NCBI RefSeq assembly: GCF_907164915.1
Contig: NC_061867.1
Span: 31,121,751-31,185,750, forward strand
Source: Impatiens glandulifera
Taxonomy: Eukaryota; Streptophyta; Magnoliopsida; Ericales; Balsaminaceae
Length of the DNA stretch: 64,000 nucleotides
Direction of reading: 5' to 3'
Of this stretch, positions 4,067 to 44,421 are shown piece after piece (within the stretch, counting starts at the first letter, position 1; every line of letters starts with the position of its first letter). A program made the translations under genes and the position numbers. The notes below the pieces were generated by a model that saw only the letters and a program-made list of their open reading frames with translations, did no database searches and was not told the DNA's origin.

Positions 4067-5060
4067 GTCTAATAGAATTAGACGTACAGTCTAACTCATC
4101 GGAGTTAGACGTGTAAGTCTAATAGATGTGTAAAGAATTAGACGGAAAGTCTAATGAATACACGGAATTAGACGGATTGTCTAATGGAATTAGACGTGAG
4201 TCTAATAGAATTAGACGTACAGTCTAACTCATCGAAGTTAGACGTGTAAGTCTAATAGATGTGTAAAGAATTAGACGGATAGTCTAATGAATACACGGAA
4301 TTAGACGGATAGTCTAATGGAATTAGATGCGAGTCTAATAGAATTAGACGTATAGTCTAACTCATCGGAGTTAGACGTGTAAGACTAATAGACGTAAAGA
4401 ATTTGACAGGTTGTCTAATTAGTGAAAGTTAGACGTGAGTCTAACTCCTTCAGATTAGTCTGAGGTAGAACCGGAATTAGACGTGGCAGTCTAACTCAGT
4501 GGAGTTAGACGTGCCGGTCTAATGGTTATGTAATAATGAGACGGGTTATTTAATTGGTGAAAGTTAGACGTGAGTCTAACTCCTTTAGATTAGTCTGAGG
4601 TAGAACCGGAATTAGACGTGACAGTCTAACTCAGTGGAGTTAGACGTGCCGGTCTAATGGTTATGTAATAATTAGACGGGTTGTCTAATTAGTGAAAGTT
4701 AGACGCGAGTCTAACTCCTTCAGATTAGTCTGAGGTAGAACCGGAATTAGACGTGGCAGTCTAACTTAGTGGAGTTAGACGTACCCTTCTAATGGTTATG
4801 TAATAATTAGACAGGTTGTCTAATTAGTGAAAGTTAGACGTAAGTCTAACTCCTTCAGACTAGTCTGAGGTAGAACTAGAATTAGACATGGTAGTCTAAC
4901 TCAATGGAGTTAGACGTACCCGTCTAATGGTTATTGTAATTAGACGCGAGTCTAATTCTATTAGACCAGGCGGTCTAATAGGCGTTCTCATTAAAAGGAG
5001 TTGACTTATTTCATTAGACGTATTTTCTCAAATTCGTCTAACTGAAATACATCTAATGCT
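4067..5060 (+). repeat. U3 palindrome array (TTAGAC...GTCTAA), two-tier tandem repeat
   Basis: Dozens of short dyads of the form TTAGACGT-n-AGTCTAA are organised in tandem units of about 130-140 bp. The marker CTTCAGATTAGTCTGAGG recurs at about 4446, 4578, 4717 and 4849. The same array is in the 3' LTR (marker at about 12787, 12919, 13056 and 13188). Palindrome clusters in U3 are known from Sireviruses, where the sequence differs between families. Confidence 0.85.
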
Positions 5061-5660
5061 CTGTTTAAGTAGTACGCTTGAATCTAACATTTCTCTTATC
5101 CACGTGCTATAGCTGTACCCTACTCCTGCTCCACTTTCTAGTGAAGATTAGTACAACAGCTATATGCATCCAATCAAAGAATGTCACGTAAGAGAATTTT
5201 TTCACATTACCTATTTTGCAGGTATATCCCTGATGGAATATTCGGCGCACTACCAGTTCGGTACGACCACGATCCTTGTGCTCAGAACCTGCTGTCTACA
5301 ATGGAGGCTTTCCAATTGAAGAGCGCCACTTATCATTCTTGTAGATTCGACCGTTAGCTCCTGCTCAGTATTTAATCAATCCTAAGGAGAACGGACGATC
5401 TTACAAACAAGCAATCTGATTTTGCAGAGAGAGATTACTCAATCATCTTGCTTATTGAACTTATTCTGTGAAGCTTCTTTCTGATTGTTCTGTGTGTGAA
5501 TCGAGAGAGAGAGAGCTAGAATCAAAACACCATTAGCTGAGTGATATTCTTCATCTTCTTGTAATTGAATAGAAAGTGTTCTGTTCAATAGTGAGCTAAG
5601 TGTGTGTGTAAACTGTATTTGATTCTCATCATATAGTGAATCCTTCCGGTGGTTGGAAGA

Positions 5661-5700
5661 AGGGGTGACGTAGGAGAGTTTCTCCAAACATCCATAAACA
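5661..5700 (+). promoter_or_regulatory. Conserved leader hairpin 1 (element A 5' LTR)
   Basis: GGGGTGACGTAGGAG is followed by a short loop and CTCC, then ACATCCATAAAC. The stem is GGAG/CTCC (5673-5676 and 5682-5685). The same block with different loops occurs in the LTRs of B, C and D. Confidence 0.6.
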
Positions 5701-5774
5701 AACTGCCGTGTTCTTCATTTCTGTCATCTTTTCATATTTCATCTTGTGCTTCAAACCCAAGTAAACAATTCCGC

Positions 5775-5791
5775 CTTGAATCTGTTTCAAG
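5775..5791 (+). promoter_or_regulatory. Conserved leader hairpin 2 (element A 5' LTR)
   Basis: CTTGAA and TTCAAG flank a 5-nt loop. The equivalent stem is found in D (34158-34174) and C (63357-63372), and in a shortened form in B (44233-44249). Confidence 0.55.
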
Positions 5792-5919
5792 TGTTTACAC
5801 AAGTTTGCGTAGAATAGAAAGAGATATTAATCCCTAACATGATTTCTATCAAACCGTTTTTATAAGCCTTCATCATTAGGCAGACCCCCGTCTCTATTGA
5901 TAAAGCCGATCCTATAAAT

Positions 5920-5932
5920 TAGTATCAGAGCC
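5920..5932 (+). other. Element A primer binding site
   Basis: TAGTATCAGAGCC, one mismatch from the Met-tRNA complement TGGTATCAGAGCC, directly after the 5' LTR. Confidence 0.75.
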
Positions 5933-5962
5933 CTGTTTCTATTCTCAAGCCTTTCCTGAAAA

Positions 5963-7760
5963 ATGTCAAACGTACCCAAAGATGCCAGTGCTACAGCCAT
6001 TCCAACCTTCTCTCGTGAAAACTACATTGTTTGGAAGAAAAGAGTTCGTGTTCATCTCTATTCTCTTCATGATGATATGTGGAGTATTGTCACAGAAGGT
6101 CCTATCAAGATTGATAAGGAGAAGGCTGACTAGACTGTTGATGAAAAGAGGCAGAACACAACAACACGACTCTTAATGTTCTATACAGATCTCTCGATGA
6201 CAGTATGTTCAACTACATCATCGAATGTGACACTGCCAAAGAGTTCTGGGACAGACTCACTCAACTGTGTGAGGGCAACGAGCAAACCAAAGAAAACAAA
6301 ATCATGGTTGCCACTCAACAGTTCGACAGCTTCAAAATGCATCCTGGTGAAACAATGAACGATTTCGACACCATATTCAGTAAGATCGTCTCCTCTCTGT
6401 CCATCCTAGGCAAGACCTATAGCAACCGGGAGCTTGCTATCAAGGTCATGCGTGCTTTCCAAGGGAATGGGACATAAAGACTATGGCGATGAGAGAATCC
6501 AAAGATCTAAACAAGATCTCTCTCTTTAATCTCTTCGCTGACCTCAAGGCCTATGAGTTTGAGCTGAACTATAGGATGGAAGAAGATTAACCCTCGTCCG
6601 TTATTATTGCCAAGGCGTTGGTGACTGCTGAAAAGCCACCAAATGCTCTGGACGTGAAGATGGCAGCTCAGCAGCTGAGCAGCGATGCCATGTCTCACTT
6701 TGTGAAGAAGTTTGGCGACTTCATGAAGAAGAGCAACTCTAACTCAAACTCTTCAAATTCTAATGATAATAGAAAATCTAAAGCTAATGTTACTTGTTTT
6801 AACTGTGGTATTAAAGGTCATTATGAATCGGAATGCCGGAAGCCAAAACGTGAAGACGCCAAGGAAGATGGAAAAGAGTTGAAGGCTCTTATTGCCGGTG
6901 ACGGAAAGAACAGAGGAATACCCCGTGGCTCGTACTTCTCAACCAGTGAAAGCGATGAAGAAGACGTGACTTGCTTCATGGCCAGAGAAGATGAGGAAGG
7001 AACTCAAGAAACAGAGGTATTTGATTTCTCCTCCGAAAGGTTTTCAAGGGAACAACTGGTAGCTGCACTAGATGAAATGGTCACCGAGTACAGAAAGCTA
7101 GCAGAATCTCTAAATGAAACTAAATCTTCATTAGATTTAAATGAACCAAATCTGTCTAAAGAGGAAGAGTCACATGTTTTTAAAAAGAAAATTGAAGAGA
7201 TCTCATCTGAAAATGAGATTCTCAAAGAACAGATTCAAACTCTTTCATCTGAAAACAAAAGTCTTAACTATGTTGTCTGTGCATGGACAAGGTCTGGTGA
7301 TGCTGTCAAATATCAGATCAGCATGTTGAAACTTGCTGGATCCATATCCGGATTGGGATTTGATAGCAATGATCATAACCTGTCATGCAAAAAGTCAAAG
7401 TCAAATGACAAACATAAGCCAATAAGTTTTGTCAAAGGAAGTATGACTGACATTGAATCTGATCCTATTCATGAAGAAGTTGCATTAAAAAATAAAATAG
7501 TTTATGTTCCACCAACTGTTAGCTGGCTTAAGAATAAGCTTGAAAAGACTAATAAGTTTGGTAAATTAAAACCTGACTCTAAGTCAAGGAGTTTTAAAAG
7601 AAAACTAAAACCTTCTTCAAAAGTCAAAGGATTAGTGGCTAGCAGGAAATCATCTGCTAAGTCAAAATCTTATGCATTAATCATAACACAAAATGGGAAA
7701 TCCATCAGAATAACTCAAATATGGATTCCTAAGGGATTAATTGATCGAGGACCCAATTGA
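5963..7760 (+). pseudogene. gag: Element A gag
   Basis: Copia-type capsid/nucleocapsid gene that would form the virus-like particle. The start ATG at 5963 follows the primer site and matches the start in element B. The N-terminal part (FSRENYIVWKKRV) and the LCEGNEQTKENKIMVATQQF block are typical of the UBN2/gag family. A CX2CX4HX4C zinc knuckle (CFNCGIKGHYESEC, near 6795-6836) is followed by an acidic, coiled-coil-like C-terminus ending in IWIPKGLIDRGPN. Breaks: in-frame TAG at 6131-6133, frame shifts near 6160 and 6460, and TAA at 6588-6590. The last 380 codons (6618-7760) remain open. In autonomous relatives, protease would follow directly. Here the frame ends and the accessory promoter begins. 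Confidence 0.85.
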
Positions 7761-7989
7761 GTATGGGTACCAAGATTTGTAAATAGTTTATTTTGTAGGT
7801 GATGCATGAGGATAGCAGGAAGGAAGCTAGAAGAGTACTCATCTGAGTACACATCTTGGAAGATCAACAATTGTACTTGCCATTCTGGAAGAATAATTGT
7901 TTTTAATTGTTAAAAATGTTTTTGGTCTTTGGACCACAAAAATTGTTTATAAAACTCTAATGTCCATATTCATTTTTGAGAAGAAAAAT

Positions 7990-8732
7990 TTCTTTGGAAT
8001 TAAAGATATTCTCTAGACGAATATCCTTAATCGGTCTAATTAGACAAGGTTGTCTAAAAGAAAAAGTATGTACTTAGACGTATTTTTGCTCACAATTCAT
8101 ACATCTAAGTCTATATGTTGAGATTTTATATCCACGCAATTAGACAGACACGTCTAATAGACGTTAGACGTTTTTACGTCTTGAGCAAAAGGATGCTCAC
8201 GTCTAATAAACACACGTCTAACACGTGGTGTTTATGAGGAATTAGACGTACACGTCTAATAAACATTAGACGGAATTGGTATTTACACGGAATTAGACGT
8301 ATGTGTCTAATACACTCATCCGTCTAATAGACGCTGTGTTATTTGTGAAGTAAGAAAAACGTCTAACTACGTGCCGATTAGACTGATCAGGGACAGCTGT
8401 CACACGCTGAGAGCTATCTTCTATTCCCGCTCAAAATATCGAACAATCATCTTTTAATAACATGAAGACACGTGTCTATCAAGTTTAGAGAAAATGATTG
8501 ATATACCCTCATTTTTAATGATTACTTCTTGAAAAAGGACGTCTAACATTTATTAATGGGCCATACCCCTAGAATAGACAGTTATTCTGTATTTCCATTT
8601 TCATCTATATAAGGACATTCCTGCATGATTTTGAAAACTTTCAATCTCTCGAAATCTCTAAGAACCCTAGTTTTCTTGCATTTCTCTCACTAAAACTCTC
8701 AGAAATATCGTATCGATTCACATTCTCTCAAA
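7990..8732 (+). promoter_or_regulatory. Internal promoter of the element A accessory gene
   Basis: A second, looser set of TTAGAC/GTCTAA dyads (about 8030-8400) precedes a compact core promoter. It has an E2F-like ATTCCCGC (8423-8430), the inverted repeat CATGAAGACACGTGTCT (8461-8477), a site II motif TGGGCC (8557-8562), and a TATA box TATATAAGG (8606-8614). A telo-box-like AGAACCCTAG (8661-8670) lies in a CT-rich leader, and the ATG is at 8733. Order and spacing are almost the same in element B, and a related set is present in C. I infer a separate Pol II transcript for the accessory gene. Confidence 0.65.
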
Positions 8733-11700
8733 ATGGCGAAGAAAATCACGCTCGGTCACTGTACTTTGCAGGTGGACTTTCCATCGGTGTACTCCTTTGA
8801 TCAGCCGGAGGGGGTGAAGATGTTCCAAACCCTAGAATATTATGGGTTGAGGAAATATCTGGGCGGACCGTTCATCTTCTATGAAGATGAAGTTCGCGAG
8901 TTCTTCAAAACGGCAGTTATGGTGGATGATTCCATCGTAGCAACCGTTAACGGAAAAGAGATCTCTTTTGATGAAGCGGTGTATGCGGAGTTTTTTGAAC
9001 TTCCAACGGAGGGTCATCTGTTCGACTTGGTGCTCCCTTCAGAAATTATGGAGGAAATGAAGACTTCCTTCTCCGCTGACGGTTCTAAGATCCATGTGAA
9101 TGGATATAAGAAGGTATTCAAACCCCACTTTATTCTCCTAAACGACGTGGTGGCGAAGGCGCTGCAGGGGAAGGTCGGCTCTTTCAATCTCTATAGTCAA
9201 GACTGTTTTGACTATATGTGCGCCATTTCTAAAGGAATCCAAGTAAATTGGGGTCATACCCTGTTTCAGAATCTGTGTTACTCTATCAGCCAGACGAACA
9301 AGGAGAGTATCATGTATGCGGCTCAACTGAGCCACCTGTTGAAGTTTTTGGGGGTTCCTGTTGGTGAACCGACACAGATTAACTCTGCAAGAGTTTTTAC
9401 TGCTTCTACGGTGGACAAAACTCTGATTAGGGTGAAGAACAACCTAGAGTCTACATCTGGGGCATCTAGTTTCAAGACTGGTGGAAGGCCTTCCACCCGA
9501 TCAAAGCCCTCTACTTCTATTGTGTCAACAGGGGCAAATAGAACCAGAACTGTGAATGAATCAAAGGCCAGTTCCTCCAGCATGAAGAGTCCAAGTCAGA
9601 AGGACACAGAATCTGTCGATTCAAGGGTGAAGCAAGGTCCAAGCGTACTTGCTGTAACCCCGATGACATCATTATCTACTCCCTCAACCTTCTTGAGGAA
9701 ACCTTCGAGGTCTTGTGCCTCAAAGGAGAAGAAGACAAAGGCGCCCCCCGCGCGTCTAAATCTGCTAAGGTAACGTCTTCTAAATCTTTGGTTGCTGTGC
9801 CAAAATTTGTTGTTCCCGAAGTGGAACAAGTTGAATCTGTTTTCTCTCCCTTGAGAGAATCTGCTGAAGGGCCTGTTGTTGAGTTAGTCGGTCCAAATGT
9901 TGAATCTATTAACAGGGCGGAGTCCCCTGTTACTCAATCTGATCATGTAGCCGTCGGCACTACAAAGTCGTCTATGCCAGAACAAGGTGCTGTTTCTAAC
10001 TTTGTCGCTGATGAACCCATCATTCCCGCTCCCAAGGATTCCTTGGTGGTCGGAAAAATTGTTTGTAAAGAGCTTCCTGCTGAGCTCTGTTTGAAACCTC
10101 AATCGGCCTTCGAACTGTTGCGGGCCAGGAAAGGGACAAAAGGAATTGTTATTGGTGAACCAAGACCAGCTCCAAAACCTATAGAGGTTGTTGGAAAAGG
10201 GAAGTTTACTGCTTTTAAAGCTCCTAAGAAGGTGTCTGAAGCAAGAGGAATCGTTGATCTCATTTTGAATCAAGTAAAGGTTCTTTCATCTGAAAAGTTA
10301 GGAATCTATGATTCCTGGTGTACTGATAGGCTGTCCTCTAAATACAACGATTCTCTATCCAATGCTACGATAACGAAAGAATGGAAGAAGAGAGTGGCAA
10401 ATGAGAAGAAAGTCCTGAAATTGGCAAGAACTTCAGATGTGGGTGAAGCGTTGAACAAAAGGGAACTGGTGGAAGCTTGCATTCTTGGGAAAACCTTGTT
10501 TCCAATATATGAAGCCAGGAAAGCAAAATTCAACCCTGACGCAAGAGGAGCTGTTGTTGAAGGCAAAGTGCTAAAGAAGTTGAATGATATCATGGAAAGC
10601 TATGTTTCTGCTACTTCCAGATACATTCATGGCGCCAATTGCTCTGGCGCAGAACCGCTCAACGAAGAAGAGGCAATGGATATTCCGAACGCTGATGAAT
10701 CAGATGCTGCTCTCCTGATCAAATTCAGGAATCTTTCTGCCGAAGAGAGACGCATTCAAGATCATCCTGTTCAAGAGCTTCCTAATGAAGAAAAGGGAAT
10801 GGTGAATGTTCAAGAGCCTGAACAAGCTCTTGTGACAAATGTTGAAGAAGCGATCTTAGAAGATGTAGCTGAGGAGGCTTTAAAGCTCCTATTGAAGAAG
10901 ATGTGTTTATAACCCCTGTTGCGAGAACATAGGGTGTTCAAGAAAAACTGGCCGAGATAACTCATCCAGAGACTGCAAGAACTGAGGGGGAACCCTCTAA
11001 AGAGAAGAATGATGAAGAAGAAAGTTCCTCATCTGAGGAGGAACAGGATGAGCAACCAAAGGCTGTTAAGACCTACCTATTTCCTGATGGTGTTGTGGGA
11101 AGTGTTCACGAAAACATAACCACTCCCCGTCACTTTTCTGGAAGCCTGCTCGAAATTTTGAAAGGGCACAAAGAGAAATTGACGAAGAAGAGGCACAAGA
11201 GAAAGCGGCTAAGGATGCTTAAGTAAATCAGCCTGATCAATCCTTACAGATTCATACAAACTTTGAACCTATTCAAAGTATGGCTGTAGAGTCTGAAGAA
11301 GTGTCTTCTCACGAAGGTCCATCTGCTGGAGGAGATAAAATGTTAAAATCAATGAGGTCTATGCTCTCCTCAATGCAGAAGACTATGTGTCAGCCAATGA
11401 TCTCTAGGGAAGAAGAAAGGGCGAATTTCAGCAACATCTTCAATATCCTAACTGAGCTGGATAAGACCCTGAAAATGAATACGTATGAGACCCATGTCTC
11501 AAATGTAAAGTTTTCAAAATTTCAACAGGAAAGCTTCAATCACCACAGTGAACTACTTAATATTGAGAGGCACTTCAATGATGAACGCCACAAGGAAACC
11601 TTGGATGAATTCAGTTTAGTGAAAAATCAGCTGGTAGAAATGCAAGGTTGCATGAACAGAAATGACAATGAACGACAAGCTTTTGCTGAGACCAATGCCA

Positions 11701-12077
11701 GGAAGTTTCAAGCGAAAGAGGATGCTTTGAATAATGCTGAAAATGCTCAACCTCGACCAATTCAAGGTGAATCAAGCAGAAGGAACGATGGTGTAGCAAC
11801 TGGGACCAGATCCAGGCGGGCCCCAAGTTCTGATGACAATCCTAGGACAACCAAGAGAGGTGGTGCTCGAAGTGGTTCTGAGCGTGGCGGAAGAAGCGGT
11901 GGTGGCCGAAGTAGGCTATCTAATGATGATCAAGGTGGACGTGGCAGTGTTGCTGAGCGTGGAGGAAGATCGAATGCAGGAGGTCGTGTTGGTCGCGGCT
12001 ATCCTCATTTCATGAACATGCTTCCCGGGAAAGAAATGAGTCCAACCGAACCTCGAGTGAAAAGGGAAGAACAATGA
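8733..12077 (+). pseudogene. Element A accessory gene (plant-transposon-protein-like domain plus RGG tail)
   Basis: I do not know its function. The first ~225 residues (8733-9410) form a conserved domain shared with B, C and the three D copies. Marks are LQVDFPSVYSFD, a VREFF...DDSIVATVNG block, FELPTEG, FILLNDVVAKALQGK, ISKGIQVNWG and FLGVPVGEP. It resembles domains annotated in plants as putative plant transposon protein (from memory). A Ser/Thr/Lys-rich linker, a GEPRPAPKP motif, a Lys-rich helical part and a Glu-rich segment follow. Next is a weak coiled coil, and then a C-terminal RGG/GGR-rich tail (11790-12000) ending PRVKREEQ. No signal peptide or membrane segment is seen, so it is not a classical Env. 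Breaks: frame shifts near 9745 and 10895, TAG near 10930, TAA near 11222. About 1,100 codons in total. Confidence 0.7.
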
Positions 12078-12254: not shown

Positions 12255-14293
12255 TGTTGGGTCAAATTATTTTGACTAAGTGTTGAAATAATTTATCCCC
12301 TGATATTTTGATGAAGAAATAATTTATAAGTTTTAATACAGTATTGAGACAGCATGTCTCTAGATTTGGATCTAATGAGGGCCATTAGATCGATCTTGAT
12401 TTTCATTCGCATTGAATTAGACGTACAGTCTAACTCATCAGAATTAGACGTGTAAGTTTAATAGATGTGTAAAGAATTAGACGGATAGTCTAATGAATAC
12501 ACGAAATCAGACGGATAGTCTAATGGAATTAGACGTGAGTCTAATAGAATTAGACTTACAGTCTAACTCATCGGAGTTAGACGTGTAAGTCTAATAGATG
12601 TGTAAAGAATTAGACGGATAGTCTAATGAATACACGAAATTAGACGGATAGTCTAATGGAATTAGACGTGAGTCTAATAGAATTAGACGTACAGTCTAAC
12701 TCATCGGAGTTAGATGTGTAATTCTAATAGACGTAAAGAATTAGACGGGTTGTCTAATTAGTGAAAGTTAGACGTGAGTTTAACTCCTTCAGATTAGTCT
12801 AAGGTAGAACCGGAATTAGACGTGGAAGTCTAACTCAATGGAGTTAGACGTGCCGGTCTATTGGTTATGTAATAATTAAACGGGTTGTCTAATTAGTGAA
12901 AGTTAGACGTGAGTCTAACTCCTTCAGATTAGTCTGAGGTAGAACCAAAATTAGACGTGGCAGTCTAACTCAGTGGAGTTAGACGTGTCGGTCTAATGGT
13001 TATGTAATAATTAGACGGGTTGTCTAATTAGTGAAAGTTAGACGTGAGTCTAACTCCTTTAGATTAGTCTGAGGTAGAACCGGAATTAGACGTGACAGTC
13101 TAACTCAGTGGAGTTAGACGTACCCGTCTAATGGTTATGTAATAATTAGACGGGTTGTCTAATTAGTGAAAGTTAGACGTAAGTCTAACTCCTTCAGACT
13201 GGTCTGAGGTAGAACCACAATTAGACGTGGTAGTCTAACTCAATGGAGTTAGATGTACCCGTCTAATGGTTATTGTAATTAGACGCGAGTCTAATTCTAT
13301 TAGACCAGGCGGTCTAATAGACGTTCTCATTAAAAGAAGTTGACTTATTTCATTAGACTGATTTTCTCAAATCCGTCTAACTGAAATACGTCTAATGCTC
13401 TGTTTAAGTAGTACGCTTGAATCTAGCATTTCTGCTACCCACGTGCTATAGCTGTACCCTACTCTTGCTCCACTTTCCAGTGAAGATTAGTACAACAACT
13501 ATATGCATCCAATCAAGGAATGCCACGTAAGAGAATTTTCTTCACATTACCCGTTTTGTAGGTACATCCCTGATGGAATATACGGCGCACTACTAGTTCG
13601 GTACGGCCACGATCCTTGCCCTCAGAACCTACTGTGTATAATGGAGGCTTTCCAATTGAAGAGCTCCACGTATCATTCTTGAAGATTCGACTGTTAGCTC
13701 CTACTCAGTATTTAATCAATCGTAAGGGCAACGGACAATTTGTCTCACGAATCAACCTATCGGTTTTTCAAGCAATCTTACGAACAAGCAATCTGATTTT
13801 GTAGAGAGAGACTACTCAATCATCTTTCTTACTGGACTTATTCTGTGAAGCTTCTTTCTGATTGTACTGTGTGTGAATCGAGAGAGAGAGCTTGAATCAA
13901 AACACCATTAGCTGAGTGATATTCTTCATCTTCTTGTAATTGAACAGAAAGTATTCTGTTCAATAGTGAGCTAAGTGTGTGTGTAAACTGTATTTGATTC
14001 TCATCATATAGTGAATCCTTCCGGTGATTAGAAGAAGGGGTGACGTAGGAGAGTTTCTCCGAACATCCATAAACAAACTGCTGTGTTCTTCATTTTTGTC
14101 ATATTTTCATATTTTATCTTCTGCTTCAAACCCAAGTAAACAATTCCGCCTTGAATCTGTTTCAAGTGTTTACACAAGTTTGCGTAGAATAGAAACAGAT
14201 ATTAATCCCTAACAGGATTTCTATCAAACCGTTTTTTGTAAGCCTTCATCATTAGCCAGACCCCCATCTCTATTGATAAAGCTGATCCTATCA
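12255..14293 (+). repeat. Element A 3' LTR, 2,039 bp
   Basis: Runs TGTTGGGTCA...TCCTATCA. The order is a unique ~160-bp start, palindrome array (12414-13400), TATTTAAT near 13708, hairpin 1 (14048-14060), hairpin 2 (14150-14166), then the end. The gypsy protease sequence resumes at 14294. Confidence 0.85.
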
Positions 14294-14645
14294 AAGGTAT
14301 TGTGCGAGTATTGTCTTCCTCTAGAATGTACATCATATTGGTAGAAGGGAGTAGGATGGCATTTACATTGTCTAGGAACTCTATGCCGAGAACCATTTTG
14401 TAGTCGTCCATGTCAATAATGGAGAAATCCAGAAGGCCAGTCCACTCCCCCAAGTTGATCTTTACATTACGAGCAACTCCAGAAGTTGCACTTGGTGCCG
14501 AGTTGACTGCTTTAAGCCACCCTTTCTCCTTAGTGTACCGGATTCCTAGTCTTCCTGCCTCCTTTACCTCTAGAAAGTTGTTGTTGGCTCCCGTTTCCAA
14601 CAAAGCTTTAACCATGTGGTTTCTTACTTTAGTTTCCACAAATAT
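14294..14645 (-). pseudogene. Gypsy protease remnant
   Basis: The minus strand continues from gag in the same frame after a TGA. It has a retropepsin-like fold signature (VKALLETGANNNFL, later MVLGIEFL and MYILEE). The catalytic Asp-Thr-Gly is Glu-Thr-Gly here, so the enzyme would be inactive. The frame runs into element A's LTR at 14293, where the true protein ends. Confidence 0.7.
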
Positions 14646-15956
14646 TCATCCTTTCTTCGTGGACTTTGGCTCATTAAACTTTGATGTAACATCACTTATT
14701 AGGTTTAACGACCCCAGTCGAGCTTCATCGTGAGGGTGTTCTTGCTCCTCCATCAATGCTGATAGTTTGTTCTTCATAGGGAACTCTCTTGCTCTATATG
14801 ACCCTTCACAAAAGAAACACTTTATCCGGGGTTTCTCTCCACATTTCTCATCCCGATCTTCTCTACCATTGAGTTTGGTAGACTTAATTGGGTCTTCATT
14901 GTTGTAGATATGGTTTCCACCATTTCCTCCCTTGTCATTCCTCTCATAGGTCGACTTTGATTTCTCCTGCCTTCTCATTTCGAAAAGTGATTCAGCCACG
15001 ACAATAGAGGTGTTTAGATCTTGGACACCACGTCGTTCCAACTCCAGCTTCGCCCACATTTGTAGACAATCAGTGAAGGAAAACAAGGCTTCGTCGTTTG
15101 AGTAATTAGGGATTTCAAGGAGAGTGGCGATGAACTCCTTGACATACTCCTTAGTACTCCCTCTGTGTGAGAGCCGCCGCAACTTGGCCCTTACTTCTCG
15201 AATGACATTTTCTGAATAGAACTGTCTCTTAAGTTCCTCCTTGAATTCACTCCAGGTATTGATCGAACATAGACCTCTTTCTATGTCACTACTTCTTCTC
15301 CTCCACCACAGCATTGCGGTGTCTTTTAGGTATGTCGTGGCAGTATCTATCTTCCTCGCCTCTTCTACTAGGCCGAGTGTTTTGAAATACTGGTCCAGAC
15401 TCCATAAGAAGTATTCAATCTCCTTCGCATTCCTCTCGCCTAAATACGCTTTAGGCATTGGAACGTCTATCCTTATCGGATTGGGGACTCCTATAAGCGC
15501 GCGTCCGCACTCTTGCGCAACTTTCTTCTTGAGTAACGCCACATCCTCTTCAGTAGCTTGTAATTTAGATGACATTACCTCGAATTTCTCGGTCAAGGTA
15601 TTGATTTCACCAAGGAGGGTCTTCTCCAGAATCTGAGTTTGCTATTGACATTTGAACAAGCCTTCGTTCAGGGCACCTTGAATTCCTTCTCGGAGCTCGT
15701 CTCTATCCTTCTCAAGCTCGGCAATGTGTTCCTCTAGGTCCCCGACATTATCTTGTCTGTACGCCACGGTGAGTTATACCTTCTCCTGCCTGGCGATAAT
15801 ATCAACGATAGCGTCTCTTGATCTTTCTCTTTCTTTGGTAGCTTTGGTTCCTCTCGCCTGAACTTTGCGAGAGTTCCTACTATCTTCTCCGGTCCCGTGG
15901 GGAAGATTCTCTACTTCATCCACGACCTTTGAATTTTCTTCCGATCTCTTCGTCAT
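14646..15956 (-). pseudogene. gag: Gypsy gag
   Basis: The start at 15956 lies just inside the primer site. The N-terminus is charged and likely helical. The central Retrotrans_gag domain shows TATTYLKDTAMLWWRRR and FKEELKRQFY. At the C-terminus the zinc knuckle reads CFFCEGSYRAREFP, with the metal-binding His and last Cys replaced. Two in-frame stops (near 15774 and 15641) interrupt the first third, and the rest (15596-14646) is open. Gag and protease share one frame, as in many chromoviruses. The particle protein would package the element RNA. Confidence 0.75.
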
Positions 15957-17615: not shown

Positions 17616-18345
17616 TATAATATTTTAAATTATTTAATTTTCTATAAATTTGGTAAATTAATTTTCTTTTAAAACGCTGGGTTCCGCAACTCTTTTGAAA
17701 TCTCCGCGAGTTAATTATCTTCTCGTCTCACGAATTCGAACTTAGGACCTTATTGAGACTGAATAATTAAATTTTAGTGTATACCCGGTCTAAAGCGACA
17801 AGATATAAGTGATTAGGGATTAGTGCTTAGATGAAGAGTAAAAATAATTTGACGTTTTGTTAGTGAGACTCGTTTTGTGTATGATCTTTAGTTTAATCTC
17901 CGTGATAAACACCAAGTTGTGGCTAGAGTTTTTGATTTCATCTATAGAAGAAGTTTTTTGTTTGCCATTTTTGTTGTTATTTTTGTTTTTGTTTTATTTT
18001 GTTGACAAAACTTTTTGAAATAATTATTTGAAATAAATATTAAAAAATATATATATATTTTAAAATCTACTTTATAAAAATAAAATAAAAGATATTAGAA
18101 TACTAATTTTGAAATATAGATGATGTGATAACAATATTTTATGAAAAAATTCTAAAATATCAAAGATAAATAGTATTTAATTACAACCAATGACACAATT
18201 TTCTTTTTCTATCCCTTCACTTTACAAGAAAAAAGAAATCTACCAACCCTCAACAATCTAAAAAAACACACATATAAGATAATTATTATTCATCCTAAGT
18301 TTTTACCTAAAAAAAACTCCAACTTCTCTTAGGAAACAATAAATA
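17616..18345 (+). promoter_or_regulatory. Upstream region and core promoter of the LBD gene
   Basis: AT-rich, no ORF. A TATA-like TATAAG at 18273-18278 lies about 70 bp before the ATG, with an A-rich leader between. No other motif is distinctive. Confidence 0.4.
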
Positions 18346-18648
18346 ATGTGCACCGAGACCAATTCCAGCGCCAAAATTATTATTAGACCATGCGGAGCAT
18401 GTAGATACTTACGAAAGAAATGCCTCGACAATTGTATATTCGCACCTTACTTTGATTCCGATCAAGGAACCGCCAATTTCGCGTCGATTCATAAGATTTT
18501 CGGAGCAAGCAACGTTACAAAACTTCTAGCGAATATTCCGATCGACAAACGGCCAGAGGCAATTAGGACTTTAAACTATGAAGCTCATGCTCGTCTCCAA
18601 GATCCTATCTATGGTTGCGTATCTCAAATCTTTGGTCTCCAAAATCAG
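18346..18648 (+). CDS. LBD: LOB-domain (LBD/ASL) transcription factor, exon 1
   Basis: 101 codons ending at a consensus donor (CAG at 18646-18648, then GTACTT), the usual position of the single LBD intron. It contains the zinc-binding C-block [15 protein letters not shown], and [20 protein letters not shown] leads into the GAS block [30 protein letters not shown] and [15 protein letters not shown] open the leucine-zipper-like coil. All conserved residues are present, so the domain looks functional. The sequence is nearest to the class I LBD18/LBD30 type as I recall it (nuclear DNA-binding regulators of vascular and lateral-organ development). Without splicing, the frame runs on to a stop at 18685-18687. 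No second exon is visible, and the 500-N gap and a pile of retroelements follow. It is either a gene with its 3' part in the gap or a truncated copy. Confidence 0.85.
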
Positions 18649-19503
<855 letters not shown>

Positions 19504-19565: not shown

Positions 19566-20065
19566 NNNNNNNNNNNNNNNNNNNNNNNNNNNNNNNNNNN
19601 NNNNNNNNNNNNNNNNNNNNNNNNNNNNNNNNNNNNNNNNNNNNNNNNNNNNNNNNNNNNNNNNNNNNNNNNNNNNNNNNNNNNNNNNNNNNNNNNNNNN
19701 NNNNNNNNNNNNNNNNNNNNNNNNNNNNNNNNNNNNNNNNNNNNNNNNNNNNNNNNNNNNNNNNNNNNNNNNNNNNNNNNNNNNNNNNNNNNNNNNNNNN
19801 NNNNNNNNNNNNNNNNNNNNNNNNNNNNNNNNNNNNNNNNNNNNNNNNNNNNNNNNNNNNNNNNNNNNNNNNNNNNNNNNNNNNNNNNNNNNNNNNNNNN
19901 NNNNNNNNNNNNNNNNNNNNNNNNNNNNNNNNNNNNNNNNNNNNNNNNNNNNNNNNNNNNNNNNNNNNNNNNNNNNNNNNNNNNNNNNNNNNNNNNNNNN
20001 NNNNNNNNNNNNNNNNNNNNNNNNNNNNNNNNNNNNNNNNNNNNNNNNNNNNNNNNNNNNNNNNN
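19566..20065. other. Assembly gap, 500 N
   Basis: Exactly 500 N, probably a fixed-size scaffold gap. The microsatellite on its left likely caused it. Confidence 0.99.
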
Positions 20066-20346
20066 CGAGTTAGATTGCACGTCTAATTCCGGTTCTACTT
20101 CAGACTTGTATGAAGGAATTAGACTACACGTCTAACTTTCTCTTTCTATTAGACTGTACGTCTAACTCCACAAGTTAGACTGCACGTCTAATTACGGTTC
20201 TACTTCAGACTTTACTAAAGGAGTTAGACTACACGTCTAACTTTCTCTTTCTATTAGACTGCACGTCTAATTACAGTTCTACTCCAGACTTGTCGAAAGG
20301 AGTTAGACTACACGTCTAACATTCTATTTCTATTAGACTGCACGTC
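20066..20346 (-). repeat. Element E LTR, left fragment
   Basis: Minus-strand LTR of the A/B superfamily. It holds dyads such as TTAGACTGCACGTCTAA and the marker pair TTCAGACTTG...AAGGAGTTAGACT. It continues at 35282 once element D is removed. Its U5 end lies in the gap. Confidence 0.75.
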
Positions 20347-21598
20347 TATTAGGATCTAGATCGGGGATGGCGGACCGGGGTCTGACCGGTTTACACCTTT
20401 CACTCAACGGTTGGCGCTAATCTGGTTAGAGATTAACCCCGGGTTTCAATACTACACAAACTGTCACAAACCCTTGAACCGAGTTCAAGTGCGGAAGTGG
20501 TTCGTTTCAGGTTGAAGCAACACACACACGGGATGAATAAATATGGATTTGGATAATGTCGGTTTGGAGTTTAGTAGGTCGGTTTGAGGTTCAGTAAATC
20601 AGTGACAATGATGTAGATTGGTTAGAGCGGTACAGATCGGTTAGTACAAATCGGTTAGAATGTAGAGCCGACAGAAAATAAAGAACAAGACAGATTCTTA
20701 TGGATGTTCGGAGATAAAACTCCTATGTCACCCCTTTTTCTCGAAACCGCGATAAGGATATTCATTAAGGAATACACAAACACAATATCCGATCGAGACT
20801 TATTTGCTGCTCGATAAACACTCGTACAATTCTCACTGAAATTGTAATCTCACTTCAAATGCACACTTAAACTTTGAATCTTGTAGAGAGATGAACTTGT
20901 AATTAATAACTCTTAGAACTTGTAGCTGGTCGAACTGGTAATTGCATTTACTCCTCTTCAACTCCTTTTATAGGTGAAATGTGCTAACGGTCACATTTCT
21001 TCTCCTTGAATCTGATTGGTTTAGCAAAGTTCAGTGTTTCAGACCTGGCGGTTTAGGCTTCCAATGCATAGGTCAAACCGGCTAGGTTTGTATTTTACTT
21101 AATATAGCAATTGTCGGTTGGACAGTTGCCTGCACCTGGAAGGTTGCGCCTCTGACTTATCCCAGAGTGGAAAGATCTTTTCAGGCGGTCTTCTGCAGCC
21201 TGCAGAGTATCACCGAACTTGTATGAATATGGCAATGTTATAGTTTGTTCCTTTGGTATCATCTTCCGCAGATACTCAAAGTATCTGTTTACACCGATTT
21301 GTAGGTTGTACTTAGTTTGATATTCTTGCCTTCTTTCTCTAAGTAGGTTCTTCATCGATTTTCCGGTTGGATGCATTTCGGTTTAGGATGTCTACCGGTT
21401 GTTCATAGCTTCAGGTTAACCAGATGACTTCTAGTTTTGGTTACATCTTTTGCCTTATCTTCTAACCGGTCTTATTTTCTTGATCGGTTGGATTCTTGAC
21501 CGATCAGATTTTTGACCGATCCTGGTTCTTAACCGTTCCTGCACAGGAAGTTTGTTTTGATAAGTTTTTTTATTTTAACCGGTCTAATTAATCTAACA
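20347..21598 (-). repeat. Element D 3' LTR
   Basis: Plus-strand ends TATTAGGATC...ATCTAACA (the first TG mutated to TA). Hairpin 1 block at 20700-20735, hairpin 2 at 20473-20489. ACCGGT/ACCGAT words cluster at 21390-21590, on the U3 side. Confidence 0.85.
21095..21376 (-). CDS. 93-codon ORF in the U3 of element D (3' LTR copy)
   Basis: Function unknown. It shares almost all residues with the copy in the 5' LTR (34780-35061). Marks are QTKYNLQIGVNRYFEYLRKM, IPKEQT, TLPYSYKF and a Lys/Arg-rich N-terminus; it ends NCPTDNCYIK. No domain recognised. It lies upstream of the LTR TATA box, so the element's own transcript would carry it only in the 3' LTR. It may be a captured host exon or chance. 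Confidence 0.35.
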   Translation of the reverse strand: MHPTGKSMKNLLRERRQEYQTKYNLQIGVNRYFEYLRKMIPKEQTITLPYSYKFGDTLQAAEDRLKRSFHSGISQRRNLPGAGNCPTDNCYIK

Positions 21599-21613
21599 AT
21601 TTCTCCATTTTTG
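21599..21613 (-). other. Element D polypurine tract
   Basis: The minus strand reads CAAAAATGGAGAAAT directly before the 3' LTR. It is purine-rich with one T. Confidence 0.6.
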
Positions 21614-21910: not shown

Positions 21911-24137
21911 CTATTCCCTCTTCTTAGGCATGAATCTTTTCCGTAGGTAGTCAACTATCATTCCCCTTCCTGGATTGCAGGGATCGGCGCCAACTCTGGA
22001 GGAGAATCCTTGACCGCCCGAGGTTCCGGTGAACGGTGAAACCTGCGAGGGAACTGATCTGAGTGGAATAGCTTCGATACCCCGCGTTCTTTTCTGCAGC
22101 GGTATATCCTCTTCCTCGACTTCTTCAACCTCCGGGGAAACTGGGTTGTCCAATACCTTTTTAGCCGCTGCCCTCTTGGAGGCCTTTCTCTTTCTGTTGA
22201 CCGGTCCGGTTGATGGAGCAGCAGCCTTCGATTTCTTATGTGCATCGGTGATATCTTCGAATATCAGATGTTGTTCGACTAGCCGAGCCGCATCCTCATT
22301 TGCTTGAACTGCTTGTGCCGGTGCAACATTTTCTACTGTTTGAACATGTTGGGCCAGGTCTGCATCCGCTTGTTCCTTTTCCTTTTGAAGTCGTATTCGC
22401 TCGTCTTTGGCCTCTTGAATCTTCTAAGTCGCGATCTCATTCGCTTTTTCATGCGCTTCGTCGGCTGCTAGCTTGGCCGCTATCATCTCCGCCAGCTATT
22501 CGTAGACCGTCTTTAGCTCGGCTTCGGTCTGTGCATGCTTTTCTTCACGCGTTGCCATTCTTTCAAGTATTGAGCCGACCTGGATACCGGATTGAAACAG
22601 ACCCTCTTCAAAAGTTGCCAGCCTTTGATCTGTTGTCATCAGCTTTTGATCCATTAAACCGACCCATTGGTCGGTGTGAGCAAGACCGGTCTCCAGATTT
22701 GTCGTTCTTTGTATCGTGGAGTGAACAGTTGATCGGTCAGGCCGTAGTTGTCTTCAATGACCGTAAGCCGTTGAACTGCGGAGTTCAGCTTTTCACTAGT
22801 AGACTCAATAAACCGGATGTATTTCTTTTCTCTTTCTCTCACTTTCTTCTGCCACGGCATGATGGCATCTTTACAAAATTCCTCGATTAAATCCATGACC
22901 TTGGCCTCGGTCATAGCAGGCACCGGCGTTTTGTCGGTTTGAGGAGATCCAGGCAGATTGGTGAGTAATGTATCTGTTTCGGTTTCAACAGTGTTGACCG
23001 GGGGTTCCGATGGAGGAGGGATATTCTTGGCCTCATTCGGACTCGGACTGCCGTTGGATTCGTTACCGTCATCGCCTTAATGATGAGATCTGGAAAAGTG
23101 TGACGCTTCTTGGTGAGCGGGTTCCGATTCCAACCGCGTCATTTCATCGATTAGCTCCCAGACTTTGGCCGTTAGCAATTCCAGCACTAAATCATCGAAC
23201 TGGGATTTGTCCTCTTCAGGGACATCCTTTTCACGAAGATGACGAATGTGGTCGGTGAGTTCTATCAACCGGGCGTGCAGTTCAACCATCCTTCCTCTTC
23301 GAAGAGCGGTGACCACGCTCTTAGCCTTTGTAAGGTTGAGCACCGACCTTTCCATCTCAATCAGCTTTTCGTATCTCTGGTTAGCGGGATGCTCCGGTAA
23401 CATGTTGGTATAAAGGACTTCATGTCGTTCCAGAGCCCATTGATAGTAGACATCGCTCGCAGCATGAGCCTGATCGTAAAGTTGTTCTAATATTTGGGAG
23501 ACAAGTTATTCTCCCATCTGACGAACGTTGTCGTCCGCGGTTTCAAATATCTGCGTTCTCTTGGCCGAACCGGTTTCATCATTAATATTTCTGGCCGGTT
23601 GTTCTTCGACCACCTTCTCTTTCCCTTTGTCTAGCCGAGTCTCCTCGGTGTTGTTGGAGTGAGTCCGGCTAGAGCTAGACGCGGAGTTCTCCGGATTAGG
23701 AGTGTCGGCTTGAATATTAGCCGATCCGGACGTGTGCGGAACTGCTTTGCTTCCGGACTTTTCGCCCGCCGGAGCCTTTTTCTTTCTAGGCTGCGATTTC
23801 CTTCGACGAGTATTTGGTTGTTTACTGGCGGAGACCTTTGTCCTGCCCGGTTTGTCCTCCGGTTTCAGAAAGTTGGTGGATTTTATTATCTTGCTGGAAG
23901 GAATAAAAACGCCTGGGCCGGTTTCGGCATTTGAGTGGCGCATCAGCTTGCCAAGTGGAACGGCGTATCCCCACGACCGTTTTGAAGATGGATCCAACAT
24001 CTCACACAGATTAGAGAAAATAACCTTGGCCCAGTTGATCTTAATTCCTCTGACCAAACCGGCTATCATCTCAATTTTCGAAATCTACTTAGAAGATGTG
24101 AGTAAAGAGCATAGAATCGCGACCCATTTTACTTGTA
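21911..24137 (-). pseudogene. Element D accessory gene D3 (long form)
   Basis: An ATG at about 24137 follows a CT-rich leader. The N-terminal domain is mostly lost: an internal deletion joins the start to the motif RGIKINWAKVIFSNL (24069 onwards). Then come a basic stretch RRRKSQPRKKK, a Ser/Asn-rich linker, and a long helical/coiled-coil region (about 23500-22300). A bipartite nuclear-localisation-like RKRKASKRAAAKK (near 22200-22160) precedes the C-terminus FMPKKRE at 21911. Breaks: in-frame stops near 23518, 23075, 22498 and 22425, and a frame shift near 22720. Its tail differs from the RGG tail of A and B. Confidence 0.65.
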
Positions 24138-24632: not shown

Positions 24633-25334
24633 TTACATAGTGATCATTTTAGAGAGTTTGTCATCTACCACCTCCTCGTTGAGGACATTCGAGAGATTCA
24701 CCGGTGTACCCGGTCCAAGATTTGGAACGCAAGCTCGAATAACCCGGCTCAACTGAGGAGCATAGTCGAACCATCTCTTTGTTTCGACCATGTTTTTCAA
24801 GTTGTTGAAGATGACCGACGCCCAGTTGATGGGGGTGTTACTGATGATGCAGGTCATCATGTCGAAGGTCCGTTTGGAATAGTTTTGGTTCGGAGATTGG
24901 CAGATGATCGACCAGTTGACGATCTCATGCAGGAGTTGGATGTGGGGAGCAAGGTTTGTTTTCAGGCCGTGATTCTCCACCGGTGTTTCAGATCCGGAGA
25001 ACATTTCAGCGTAATCAACAGCTGCGCTGCCCACCCGGGATGGGAAATCTAAAAACCCTTCACTGGGAAGATTAAACATTCCGGCGAGTCCGCTCTCCGG
25101 GAGAACAATGACGTTGTTTTTCACGGTAGATACAACTGCACCGTTGAACATAGACGCATTGTTGAAAACTTCTAGTACCTATGGAAAAAATAGAGGTCCG
25201 GATTCTTCGAGGAAATCGCGAAGTCCGGTTTCGTCGAGGGATTCAAAGAGTATCTCCATGACTTCAACATCTTCCATGTCTAGGACAGAATCGAAGTCGA
25301 CGCATAAATAGTTCCTGAGAGTGCGATGAGACAT
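24633..25334 (-). pseudogene. Element D accessory gene D2
   Basis: 234 codons from the ATG at 25334 (MSHRTLRNYLCVDFDSVLDM), interrupted by one TAG near 25180. The same domain as A, B, C and D1: VDFDSV, GLRDFLEESGPLFF, FNLPSEG, LLHEIVN, SNTPINWASVIFNNL and a final Arg/Leu segment with a Gly-Pro-Gly turn. Compact form: it stops soon after the domain, with no linker or tail. A TATTTAAG box lies about 80 bp upstream (25409-25416). Function unknown. Confidence 0.65.
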
Positions 25335-25735: not shown

Positions 25736-26479
25736 TCAGTGACCGGAGGAGGTGAGGTGTCTGTTCTTTTTCTTCCAAGCTTTCTCGAACCGCTCATAGA
25801 AGGAGTCGTCGGAATCCCTGGTCAAGACTTGTGACTGGTTCAGCCCTTCGCCCGGACAGAGTGGAACCCCGAGTTCCATGAGTAAAAAGTTGATCTGGGG
25901 AATGAAGCCGGTATGACGGGTAGTGATCATCCAGATCAGGATGTCAAACAGCAACCTAGACCAATTGACCGGAGTATCAATTGTGATAGCGGTCATGATG
26001 TTGAAGACGGTTGCGCAGTAGGTGTTTGTGACATCTTTTACCAAGATGACCCTACCGATGATATCATTGAGAAGCTGATATTCAGCCTTTAATGATGACC
26101 GAGCTCCGTGGTCATCGACTGGAAGGTTCGAGCGTGAGAAGTTCAAAGAGATTTCAGCTTTTAGTTCGGCCGAGACATTCAGATCGGTAAGACCCTCCTT
26201 CGGAAGATCGAAGCACCGAGCGAAATCACGCTCGGAAAAGTCAAACATTGTTCCCCTAACCCTGGATTGGATAAGGGTATCAAAGTATGGAGTACCACGA
26301 AAGACCCTAGCGTTGTGGAAGAATTCGAGTACGGTCTCAGGAAAGATGACATGTTTGTCATCTAGGAAGGGCTTCAGACCGATACTTTCTAGAGATTTAA
26401 TCATTTTGAATATCTCATAGTGTTGTGTCTCATGCGTTGAATCAAAATTAACTTGGAGAATGTTTTGGAACTGAGACAT
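25736..26479 (-). CDS. Element D accessory gene D1, intact
   Basis: 248 codons with no break, the only fully open accessory copy in the window. Start chosen at 26479 (MSQFQNILQVNFDS), because its homology with D2 and A begins there; an in-frame ATG 54 bp upstream is less likely. Domain marks: VNFDSTHE, IGLKPFL, TVLEFFHNARVF, CFDLPKEGLTDL, AEYQLLNDIIGRVILVK, TIDTPVNWSRLLFDIL and LGVPLCPGEG. A short basic tail (WKKKNRHL) follows. No signal peptide or membrane span. A TATA box on the minus strand (26540-26547, TATATAAG) is about 65 bp upstream. Function unknown; probably nuclear or particle-associated. Confidence 0.65.
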   Translation of the reverse strand: MSQFQNILQVNFDSTHETQHYEIFKMIKSLESIGLKPFLDDKHVIFPETVLEFFHNARVFRGTPYFDTLIQSRVRGTMFDFSERDFARCFDLPKEGLTDLNVSAELKAEISLNFSRSNLPVDDHGARSSLKAEYQLLNDIIGRVILVKDVTNTYCATVFNIMTAITIDTPVNWSRLLFDILIWMITTRHTGFIPQINFLLMELGVPLCPGEGLNQSQVLTRDSDDSFYERFEKAWKKKNRHLTSSGH

Positions 26480-27039: not shown

Positions 27040-29162
27040 GAGGATGTTTTTGAAGTAAGAAAACTTAGCTTCCTATAGCGGCTTTGTGAAGATATCGGCT
27101 ACTTGTTGATCAGTGGATACATATTCTAGCCGAATATGCTTCTACATGACATGTTTCCGAATGAAATGATGCCTTATGTCGATGTGCTTGGTTCTAGAGT
27201 GTAAAATCGGATTGTATGTGATTGCTATGGCACTTGTGTTATCACAAAAAATCGGGGATTCTTCGGCGGTGATACCGAAGTCCTTTAGTTGTTGTTGAAT
27301 CCATAGGAGTTGTGAACAACAACTTCCGACTGCCAGATATTCTGTCTCTACGGTTGATGTAGCAACCGATGTTTGCTTCTTGTTGTGCCATGACACAAGC
27401 CGCCTAAGAATTGGCATGTTCCGCTGGTACTTTTTCTGTCAACTTTACAACCTGCATAGTCTGCATCAATGTAACTTGTGAGGTTAAAAGATGAGTCATT
27501 TGGATACCATAGATCGACTTCAGGGGTTCCCTTTAGATATTTCAAGATTCTCTTAGCGGCTGTATAGTGAGATTGTTTGGGATTAGCCTGAAATCTTCCA
27601 CACACTCCGATCGCAAATAGTTTGTCCGGTCTACATGCTGTCAGGTATAGAAGTGAGCCAATAATTCCACGATAAGCAGTTAGGTCTACTCCCTGACCGT
27701 AATCATCCTTATCCAGCTTGATTGATGAACTCATTGGAGTAGCGGTAGAGGAGCATGTGTCAATCCCAAATTTCTTTAGAAGTTCCTTTGTATATTTGGG
27801 ATGACTGATGACGTTCCTCCTTCGAGTTGTATAACCTAAAGGCCTAGGAAGAAGCTTAATTCTCCCATCATACTCATTTCAAATTTGTTAGTCATCAAGG
27901 TTGAGAATTTATCACATAGCTTAGGATCGGTTGATCCAAAAATGATATCATCCACATATATTTGAACAAGTAAAATGTGTCCCTTTTTCTCAAATTTAAA
28001 TAGGGTTTTATCCACTGAACCTATTGTAAAGTCATGATGTATCAAAAATGCGGTTAATGTGTCATACAAAGCTCTAGGGGCTTGTTTTAAACTGTACAAT
28101 GCTTTATTTAGGCGGTATACATGATTAGGCAGGTCAACATTTTTGAAACCGGGTGGTTGCTCAACGTATACTTCTTCGCGTAGGTCACCATTTAAGAATG
28201 CACTTTTAACATCCATTTAAAAAACCTTAAAATTTTTGAAAGCAGTAAATGCTAGAAAAATCCTAATGGCTTCAATTCTAGCTACAAGAGTAAATGATTC
28301 TTCAAAATCAATGTCTTCTTCCTGTTTGTATCCTTGTGCCACTAATCTAGCTTTGTTCCTCGTAACCAAACTGTCTTCATTGAGTTTATTTCTGAATACC
28401 CATCTTGTTCCTATGACCGGTTGATCTTTCAGTCTAGGGACTAGGTACCAGACTTTATTACTCTCAAACTGGTTTAACTCTTCTTGCATTCCCAAGATCC
28501 AATCCGGATCCGACAATGCTTCATACACCCTTTTCGGCTCAATCTGGGATATGAAAGCGGAATTGAAGTATTCCTCCAGTATTTGTTGCCTAGTTTGGAC
28601 GGGTTTTGAAGGGTCACCTATAATAAGCTCAGGAGGATGATTTGTGTTCCTTTTGAGATTCGGTTTAGGAGTGTCTACCAAATCACCGTTTGTTTGATCA
28701 AGGCTAGACATATCGGTAGGCTAATCAATAATGTCAGACATACCGATTTCCTTAGTTTGAACCGAGGTGTCAGCTTCCTGCTGTGTGGCAGCTTTATCCG
28801 GCTGGGTTTCATCAGCACCCATTTGGTCATTGACAAACCGTCTGAAAACAGGAACCTCATCATCACTATCAGAATGGATATTATTATTTTCCAATCTGTT
28901 GTGTAGATCAAAGGATGATGCAGTGTTACTTTCAACTGATTCACCGAATACTACATGAAGAGATTCCTCCACGGTTAAAGTTCTAGTATTATATACTCTA
29001 TATGCTTTACTAACTACTGAGTAACCTAGCATAATTCCAATATCGGATTTTGCATCAAAAGCAGATAAGTAATTTTTGCAATTTATGTGAATGTAACATT
29101 TACAACCGAAATTTTTAAGATACCTAATGTTAGGAATTCTACCAAAATACACTTCATACCTA
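27040..29162 (-). pseudogene. pol: Element D pol: integrase C-terminus, reverse transcriptase, RNase H
   Basis: Minus-strand order: integrase C-terminal part from about 29160 (YFGRIPNIRYLKNFGCKCYI, then FDAKSDIGIMLGYS), a linker, and reverse transcriptase ([25 protein letters not shown], catalytic YVDDIIFGS near 27950). RNase H follows (DADYAGCKVDRKSTSG, TVETEYLA, FCDNTSAI, HIDIRHHFIR). It copies element RNA into DNA inside the particle. Breaks: TAA just before MDVKSAFL (near 28216), frame shifts near 27835 and 27400, further stops near 27140. The catalytic residues remain. Confidence 0.85.
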
Positions 29163-32100: not shown

Positions 32101-32168
32101 AAAATTTTTAAAGAGTGTCCCAGAATTTTCGAACTAGTCGATCAAAATGTTTTAAAAAAAAAAATCGA
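29163..32168 (+). mobile_element. Ty3/gypsy Tat/Ogre-like LTR-derived insertion in element D integrase
   Basis: Non-coding, AT-rich. A core-promoter-like CCTATAAATATCC near 30505 and the block CCCACACGTAACCAAACG...GGTGGCGACTC (31835-31905) recall Tat/Ogre LTRs. It interrupts integrase between STRINM (32169) and YEVYFGR (29160). About 110 residues expected between these are absent, so the insertion came with, or was followed by, a deletion. Ends are not sharp. Assignment is tentative. Confidence 0.45.
29586..30175. mobile_element. 590-bp solo LTR with TGTAGACAC / GTGTCTACA ends
   Basis: Perfect 9-bp terminal inverted repeats. The flanks CATTC (29581-29585) and CAATC (30176-30180) match at 4 of 5 positions. 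TGTAGACAC starts are typical of Tat-lineage LTRs. It may be a solo LTR nested in the surrounding Tat-like segment. Confidence 0.5.
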
Positions 32169-44391: not shown

Positions 44392-44421
44392 AAATTTCTA
44401 TTCTCAAGCTTTTCCTGAAGA

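Follow-up and report, generated by a model that had tools for sequence, protein, structure and literature searches.

A predicted VANC21-like domain in an accessory gene kept by pol-less copia elements of Impatiens glandulifera

Introduction

What does a retrotransposon that lacks pol gain from keeping a gene of some 1,100 codons? The question is raised by a 64,000-nucleotide stretch of the Impatiens glandulifera genome (contig NC_061867.1 of RefSeq assembly GCF_907164915.1, positions 31,121,751 to 31,185,750, forward strand; hereafter the window, in whose numbering all coordinates are given). Four copia-type elements in the window, A and B on the plus strand and C and D on the minus strand, carry one accessory protein domain, and in A and B its gene follows gag with no pol between them. 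An initial annotation had described this family and proposed that the gene is useful to the element. We report that the domain has a predicted fold resembling that of the anti-silencer VANC21 and that A and B carry arrays of a palindrome in their long terminal repeats (LTRs) and upstream of the gene. Together, fold and arrays suggest a function: the gene may encode a sequence-specific DNA-binding anti-silencing factor that works like VANC and was kept by a pol-less lineage, a reading by analogy in which we place as much belief as doubt.

An extra open reading frame (ORF) between pol and the 3' LTR is not new in itself. Sireviruses are described as having an ENV-like gene there, of unproven function (PMC3414828, PMC6317226), and 74% of SIRE-clade elements are reported to have a heterogeneous extra ORF at the position of our accessory gene (PMC6317226). 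For Tork and Athila elements, the existence of ORFs of this kind, and any influence of theirs on the epigenetic landscape, are described in 2026 as still to be studied (PMC12844716).

Results

The accessory domain and its predicted fold

ORF maps and Pfam place the domain after gag in A and B and after pol in C and D. A, B and D each have it once, and the single element C has 2.5 tandem copies, made up of two full domains and one half domain. That these are one family, as first proposed, is borne out by homology: the domain of A matches C copy 1 (30% over 223 columns, E 8e-29) and one piece of D (E 7e-12), C copy 2 matches copy 1 (32%, E 1e-26), C half copy 3 matches copy 2 (E 3e-9), and A matches two accessory pieces of B at 72 and 76%. 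The short pieces of D are nearer to A (36-45%) than those of C are (29-30%).

The accessory gene of A (8733-12077, +) has the domain at its N terminus (8733-9434) and spans 1115 codons, so the proposed length of about 1,100 codons stands; intactness does not, as stops and frame changes interrupt the gene, that of B (47208-50620, +) is broken too, and the window holds no intact whole copy. In C, copy 1 lies at 25739-26479 (-; its ATG, at 26479, was taken from the printed sequence), copy 2 at 24636-25178 (-), with its N-terminal part outside the open frame, and half copy 3 with the remaining tail pieces at 21914-24084 (-). D keeps remnants at 57308-57856 (-; ATG at 57745, from the translation). 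Downstream of the domain the protein is rich in serine, threonine and charged residues, and A and B end in an RG-rich C-terminal tail (the last piece of A holds 11 RG/GR dipeptides and that of B 14), a statement of composition only. In agreement with the initial annotation we found no membrane segment: hydropathy averaged over 19 residues peaked at 1.46, against a threshold of 1.6, across 15 pieces from elements A, B and C (all of D and some of the middle of B lay outside the scan, which used no dedicated signal-peptide or membrane program).

AlphaFold models of two diverged members, the domain of A and C copy 1, are globular, mixed alpha/beta structures. The single standout among solved structures was VANC21, over 195-197 residues, and both predicted models show the fold of its DNA-bound construct. 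On these models, the accessory domain very probably has a VANC21-like fold. Neither a viral structure library, queried solely with the A model (best E 0.18, probability 0.08), nor a PDB sequence search with the family profile gave a comparable match; the latter returned nothing at E<=1 and one huntingtin repeat at E 4.3. DUF1985 gave no match at E<=1, nor was there one among 46 members at E<=10, in a search where weak matches were possibly filtered.

For the domain, Pfam returns a single family, Transposase_32 (PF20167; putative plant transposon protein), and the resemblance is distant. Scores for the A domain and the first two C copies are 16.5-24.8 bits, where the curated cut-off is 45, with matches covering 67-162 residues, and C half copy 3 has no PF20167 match; of 72 aligned members, 45 match PF20167 at E<=0.01. 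The extra 3' ORF of a sunflower Athila element (Ty3/gypsy) is also described as PF20167-like (PMC11728184); unlike it, the PF20167-like domain of A-D sits in copia elements.

Searched with a piece of A, 2 of 1443 candidates proved to be relatives, both Impatiens glandulifera proteins that align with a third of the query at 67-70% identity. A relative from Dorcoceras as query matched 384 of 571 candidates, and among the 120 listed of these 384 all came from Dorcoceras hygrometricum, 35 of them with a precomputed PF20167 assignment; judged by sequence, the domain is abundant in Dorcoceras. One Dorcoceras hygrometricum gene model (P0074) fuses a copia-type gag with a CCHC knuckle to the domain without pol, the gene order of A and B, and represents either an element without pol or a spliced gene model. 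A second (P0004) has the domain twice, the second time partially, and resembles C. In one predicted Impatiens glandulifera protein (P0002) the first half of the accessory domain is linked to an NF-YB/histone-fold domain (PF00808); this is either a fusion in the host or a gene model extending into an element.

Loss of pol in A and B

C has the copia order of gag, protease, integrase, reverse transcriptase and RNase H in broken pieces at 27145-33828 (-). Pfam finds Retrotran_gag_2, Pol_BBD, gag_pre-integrs with rve (30.4 bits for rve, against a cut-off of 32.6) and RVT_2, and RNase H was assigned by eye. Some 3 kb between the integrase and reverse transcriptase pieces (29181-32171, -) contain no pol pieces, are rich in A/T words and are possibly a nested insertion. 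The gag and pol remnants of D (58580-62942, -) were recognised, as to pol, by comparison with C; D as a whole is degraded, spans 57.3-63.5 kb and has no 3' LTR that we found in the window.

None of 13 pol pieces, seven from C and six from D, matched A or B (tblastn, E<=1e-3), whereas C and D each matched all 13. Element A consists of a 5' LTR (4072-5917, +; its extent is that of the alignment with the 3' copy, and roughly 155 bases at the start of the LTR were not located), a broken gag with one CCHC knuckle (5919-7757, +), a linker (7758-8732, +), the accessory gene and a 3' LTR (12255-14293, +). Element B has its 5' LTR at 42917-44376, gag in two open pieces at 44419-46149, a linker at 46150-47207 and its 3' LTR at 50802-52362 (all +), and a perfect 5-bp target duplication, CAAAC, bounds the LTR pair immediately on both sides. 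Homology of A and B with D runs to A7800/B46269 (D 61633/61624), immediately 5' of protease, which puts the junction in A near 7800 and that in B at the same place; homology of B with D resumes at 46927-46960 (D 58063-58029), in the interval that separates RNase H from the accessory gene. Read from the sequence, A and B lost pol via one common deletion, and the shared junction noted at the outset is confirmed. Because the deletion is common to two insertions and B has a target duplication, this lineage with gag and accessory gene probably moved in pol-less form.

Constraint and divergence of the accessory gene

The ratio of nonsynonymous to synonymous divergence (dN/dS; NG86) between A and B, the one pair compared, is 0.22 for the accessory gene (bootstrap 0.16-0.29; 613 of ~1,115 codons, those with stops, N or gaps removed) and 0.24 for gag. 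For the domain it is 0.11 (0.09-0.14), a rough value since domain dS, at 1.58, is close to saturation; 'domain b' was saturated and has no bootstrap. Allowing for decay after insertion (half the LTR divergences, ~0.07 summed) would make dN/dS still lower. The protein is thus under selection in this pair, and the proposal that the gene is useful to the element gains support.

A and B are one lineage by their pol deletion, as proposed; a uniform history they do not have, on sequence comparison. Synonymous divergence is higher in the accessory gene than in gag (dS 1.28 against 0.54), as are fourfold-site differences (86/161 against 31/122; Fisher 2e-6). Measured per 300 columns, divergence between A and B is 14-21% across gag and the linker, apart from 28% at 7725-8025, and 28-42% from about 8630 on. 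Since fourfold sites and dS differ more, we tentatively read the accessory gene as under constraint and yet older, or evolving faster, than the part made up of LTR, gag and linker, possibly through module exchange or faster evolution.

Palindrome arrays in the LTRs and linkers

The palindrome TTAGAC-N4-6-GTCTAA, with constant arms and a variable middle, occurs 92 times in the window against 0.03 expected (100 shuffles served as control for this motif, 200 per region for the regional counts). Its arrays in A and B are restricted to LTRs and linker. Eighty-four copies lie in A/B-type LTRs: 25 and 23 in the 5' and 3' LTRs of A, 9 and 14 in those of B, and 7 and 6 in the halves of an A/B-type LTR split by C (35299-35558, -, and 20066-20346). 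The other eight lie in the linker 5' of the accessory gene, four each at matching positions in A (8040, 8140, 8242 and 8293, +) and B (46506, 46606, 46709 and 46759, +). None was found in the gag or accessory coding DNA of A and B, in C or in D.

The linker half-sites are conserved, with 96/96 bases identical between A and B when chosen in B and 105/108 when chosen in A, in surroundings that are 26% different. They stand ~300-570 bases 5' of an internal TATA box, TATATAAGGA, at 8606 in A and 47079 in B (both +), 127 and 129 nt 5' of the ATG. TATA boxes also lie 5' of C copy 1 (TATATAA, 26545) and of the D accessory gene (57912).

Other palindromes are enriched in C and D, without clear tandem arrays. 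The D linker (57857-58579, -) has four copies of AGACGTCT against 0.015 expected, which uses the AGAC/GTCT arms of the A/B palindrome with the gap absent. C has 11 non-coding copies of ACCGGT (0.47 expected), among them four in its 5' LTR (34034-35281, -) and four in its 3' LTR (20347-21599, -), which differ by 4.4%; it also has eight coding copies (0.89 expected). By region, ACCGGT enrichment is not significant in the linker alone or in gap 2-3, reaches 1e-4 in gap 1-2 and 6e-5 in the LTR, and 5.5e-9 with linker and gaps pooled. The palindrome type therefore differs among A/B, C and D within one genome. D is closer to A than C is both in palindrome arms and in protein, a correspondence that, with three motif types, is suggestive only.

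In a count of 5-base dyads over 14 regions, a single arm exceeded all shuffles only in the LTRs and linkers of A and B (25, 4, 17 and 4 copies); elsewhere the best single arm reached at most two copies in C and one in the D linker. Total dyad counts do not discriminate, as coding DNA also exceeds its shuffles (A accessory 55 against 24.8; D pol 36 against 17.7) and the D linker does not (7 against 6.5). In 176 control windows, those with more than 50 N being skipped, the top words were (AT)n repeats. Permuted 6-mers in the A spacer gave a weighted mean identity of 0.854, a poor control, since overlapping words and even the motif are counted in it.

C itself sits inside the A/B-type LTR, in one palindromic box, with flanks ...TTAGACGT and GACGTGCAGTCTAA... 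and a 5-bp duplication, GACGT (20342-20346 and 35282-35286). Boxes are dense at that spot, and the insertion in one of them is possibly chance.

Neighbouring features

Between the elements, 18343-18684 (+) is a LOB-domain open frame of plant transcription factor type (PF03195, E 7e-33), probably a gene or gene fragment. Gag- and protease-like frames recognised by eye adjoin A (14295-15641, -) and belong to another element, probably of gypsy type. Two assembly gaps of exactly 500 N each lie at 19566-20065, adjoining the A/B-type LTR fragment beside C, and at 41088-41587.

Discussion

VANC proteins are described as binding short motifs that recur in tandem within non-coding parts of the elements encoding them, and as removing methylation there, with target motifs that vary between related families (PMC5735166, PMC10398659). 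Like VANC21 of VANDAL21, a DUF1985-type anti-silencer of an Arabidopsis MULE DNA transposon, the accessory gene of A and B is transposon-encoded in a plant and stands beside transposition genes, the domain of A and C shares the predicted fold, and A and B carry tandem arrays of a short motif, a putative target, in their own non-coding DNA. Unlike VANC21, the gene of A-D lies in Ty1/copia elements, with LTR pairs and copia gag and pol, rather than in a VANDAL/MULE transposon, and its domain has no detectable DUF1985 or sequence kinship. The A/B motif is a two-armed palindrome in place of VANC21's YAGTATTAY, and the activity of the accessory protein is putative. Likening the A-D family to a VANDAL/VANC system in LTR elements is our best reading, and we do not claim membership of the VANC family. 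We met no report of a VANC-like protein in LTR elements in the portions of the literature searched (including PMC12844716, PMC12859917 and PMC13317346).

On this analogy, the N-terminal VANC21-like domain would bind the family-specific palindrome in the LTRs and 5' of the accessory gene's own promoter; that the protein binds the palindromes of its own element we consider probable, on the model and the arrays. A helical tail, seen by eye and with no coiled-coil program, could pair two subunits on two half-sites, so that the protein may dimerise, and the RG-rich and charged tails could contact chromatin or RNA. Binding would remove or block DNA methylation, an outcome that seems to us evenly balanced between likely and not. 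The opened LTR promoter would then yield genomic RNA and gag, and the internal promoter accessory mRNA. A and B, being non-autonomous, would borrow pol in trans while retaining their own gag and their own anti-silencing key.

The same fold and motif evidence would serve an ordinary transcriptional activator, Tat/Tas-like, that binds the palindromes to drive its own LTR and internal promoter and leaves DNA methylation unaffected. The placement of the boxes suits such a protein, 162-1062 bases into the 3' LTR in A and 176-717 in B, and upstream of the internal TATA box; the sole standout structure is nevertheless an anti-silencer, and dense tandem arrays are described for VANC targets (PMC5735166). 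Our evidence fits both readings; we regard the activator as unlikely, if a serious contender. Of similar standing is the view that the palindromes are sites for a host factor and the protein unrelated to them, helping for instance to assemble particles, to package RNA or in nuclear transport. For Sirevirus palindromes, Bousios et al. (2010) retrieved mainly sites of stress-related host factors, and some Sireviruses are reported to carry the motif or the ENV-like gene alone (PMC2829016); an RG-rich tail, moreover, suits RNA binding. This view makes coincidences of the resemblance of two members to the VANC21 fold and of the published link between ENV and linker palindromes, and a common host factor does not predict a palindrome that differs among A/B, C and D in one genome.

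That the gene is a functionless passenger hitch-hiking in old copies fits the absence of an intact copy from the window, and is very improbable given dN/dS values no higher than that of gag, the recurrence of the domain in all four elements and in Dorcoceras, and the conserved half-sites and TATA region 5' of the gene. Slighter still is the chance of a degenerate envelope-like or movement protein of Sirevirus type, for which the position between pol and the 3' LTR speaks (PMC3414828, PMC6317226); we rejected Env on hydropathy, in the 15 pieces of A, B and C scanned, and on the predicted mixed alpha/beta globular domain, to which the charged, RG-rich tails may be added.

The anti-silencing proposal also bears on Sireviruses, in whose LTRs Bousios et al. 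(2010) describe palindromic repeated motifs (PMC2829016). Of Sireviruses with both motif and ENV-like gene, nine of nine are reported to have linker copies, 77 of 79 of these lying 5' of ENV, whereas none of four motif-bearing Sireviruses without ENV has any (PMC2829016). An ENV-like gene that binds DNA and targets its own element would account for linker motifs tracking ENV; weighing against this are six ENV-containing Sireviruses described as without the palindromic motif (PMC2829016). A-D share with Sireviruses a copia gag, the gene order and the extra ORF between pol and the 3' LTR, and A and B also have palindromes in the early part of the LTR and 5' of the extra ORF. Their palindrome lacks the CGG-CCG core of the Sirevirus repeated motif, however, and the accessory pieces of A, B and C, unlike Sirevirus ENV-like proteins, have no membrane segment. 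A purine octamer begins 10 bases 5' of the 3' LTR in A and B, as in Sireviruses (AAAAAGGGGGAAAT precedes that LTR in A); it reads AGGGGGAA instead of the Sirevirus AGGGGGAG, expected 10 bp before the 3' LTR and in the linker, of which the window has no copy. Because the octamer is not exactly theirs, and canonical ENV-like proteins were outside the comparison, we do not file A-D as Sireviruses.

TR-GAG elements are non-autonomous elements with LTRs and gag but without pol. A and B resemble them in keeping LTRs and gag without pol, and differ in also retaining the ~1,100-codon accessory gene with its promoter-like region. More tentatively, and with less than even confidence, we suggest that the long-disputed 'env-like' genes of Sirevirus-type, perhaps also Athila, elements are sequence-specific anti-silencers of VANC class with the LTR and linker palindromes as co-evolving targets, and that pol-less elements such as A and B survive by gag and key, their enzymes borrowed.

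The predicted fold and the element-specific palindromes turn the function of env-like genes into a directly testable question. If the anti-silencing proposal is true, it would account for a gene of this length being kept by a pol-less element, and sequence-specific anti-silencing would have arisen in, or spread to, LTR retrotransposons beyond one group of DNA transposons.

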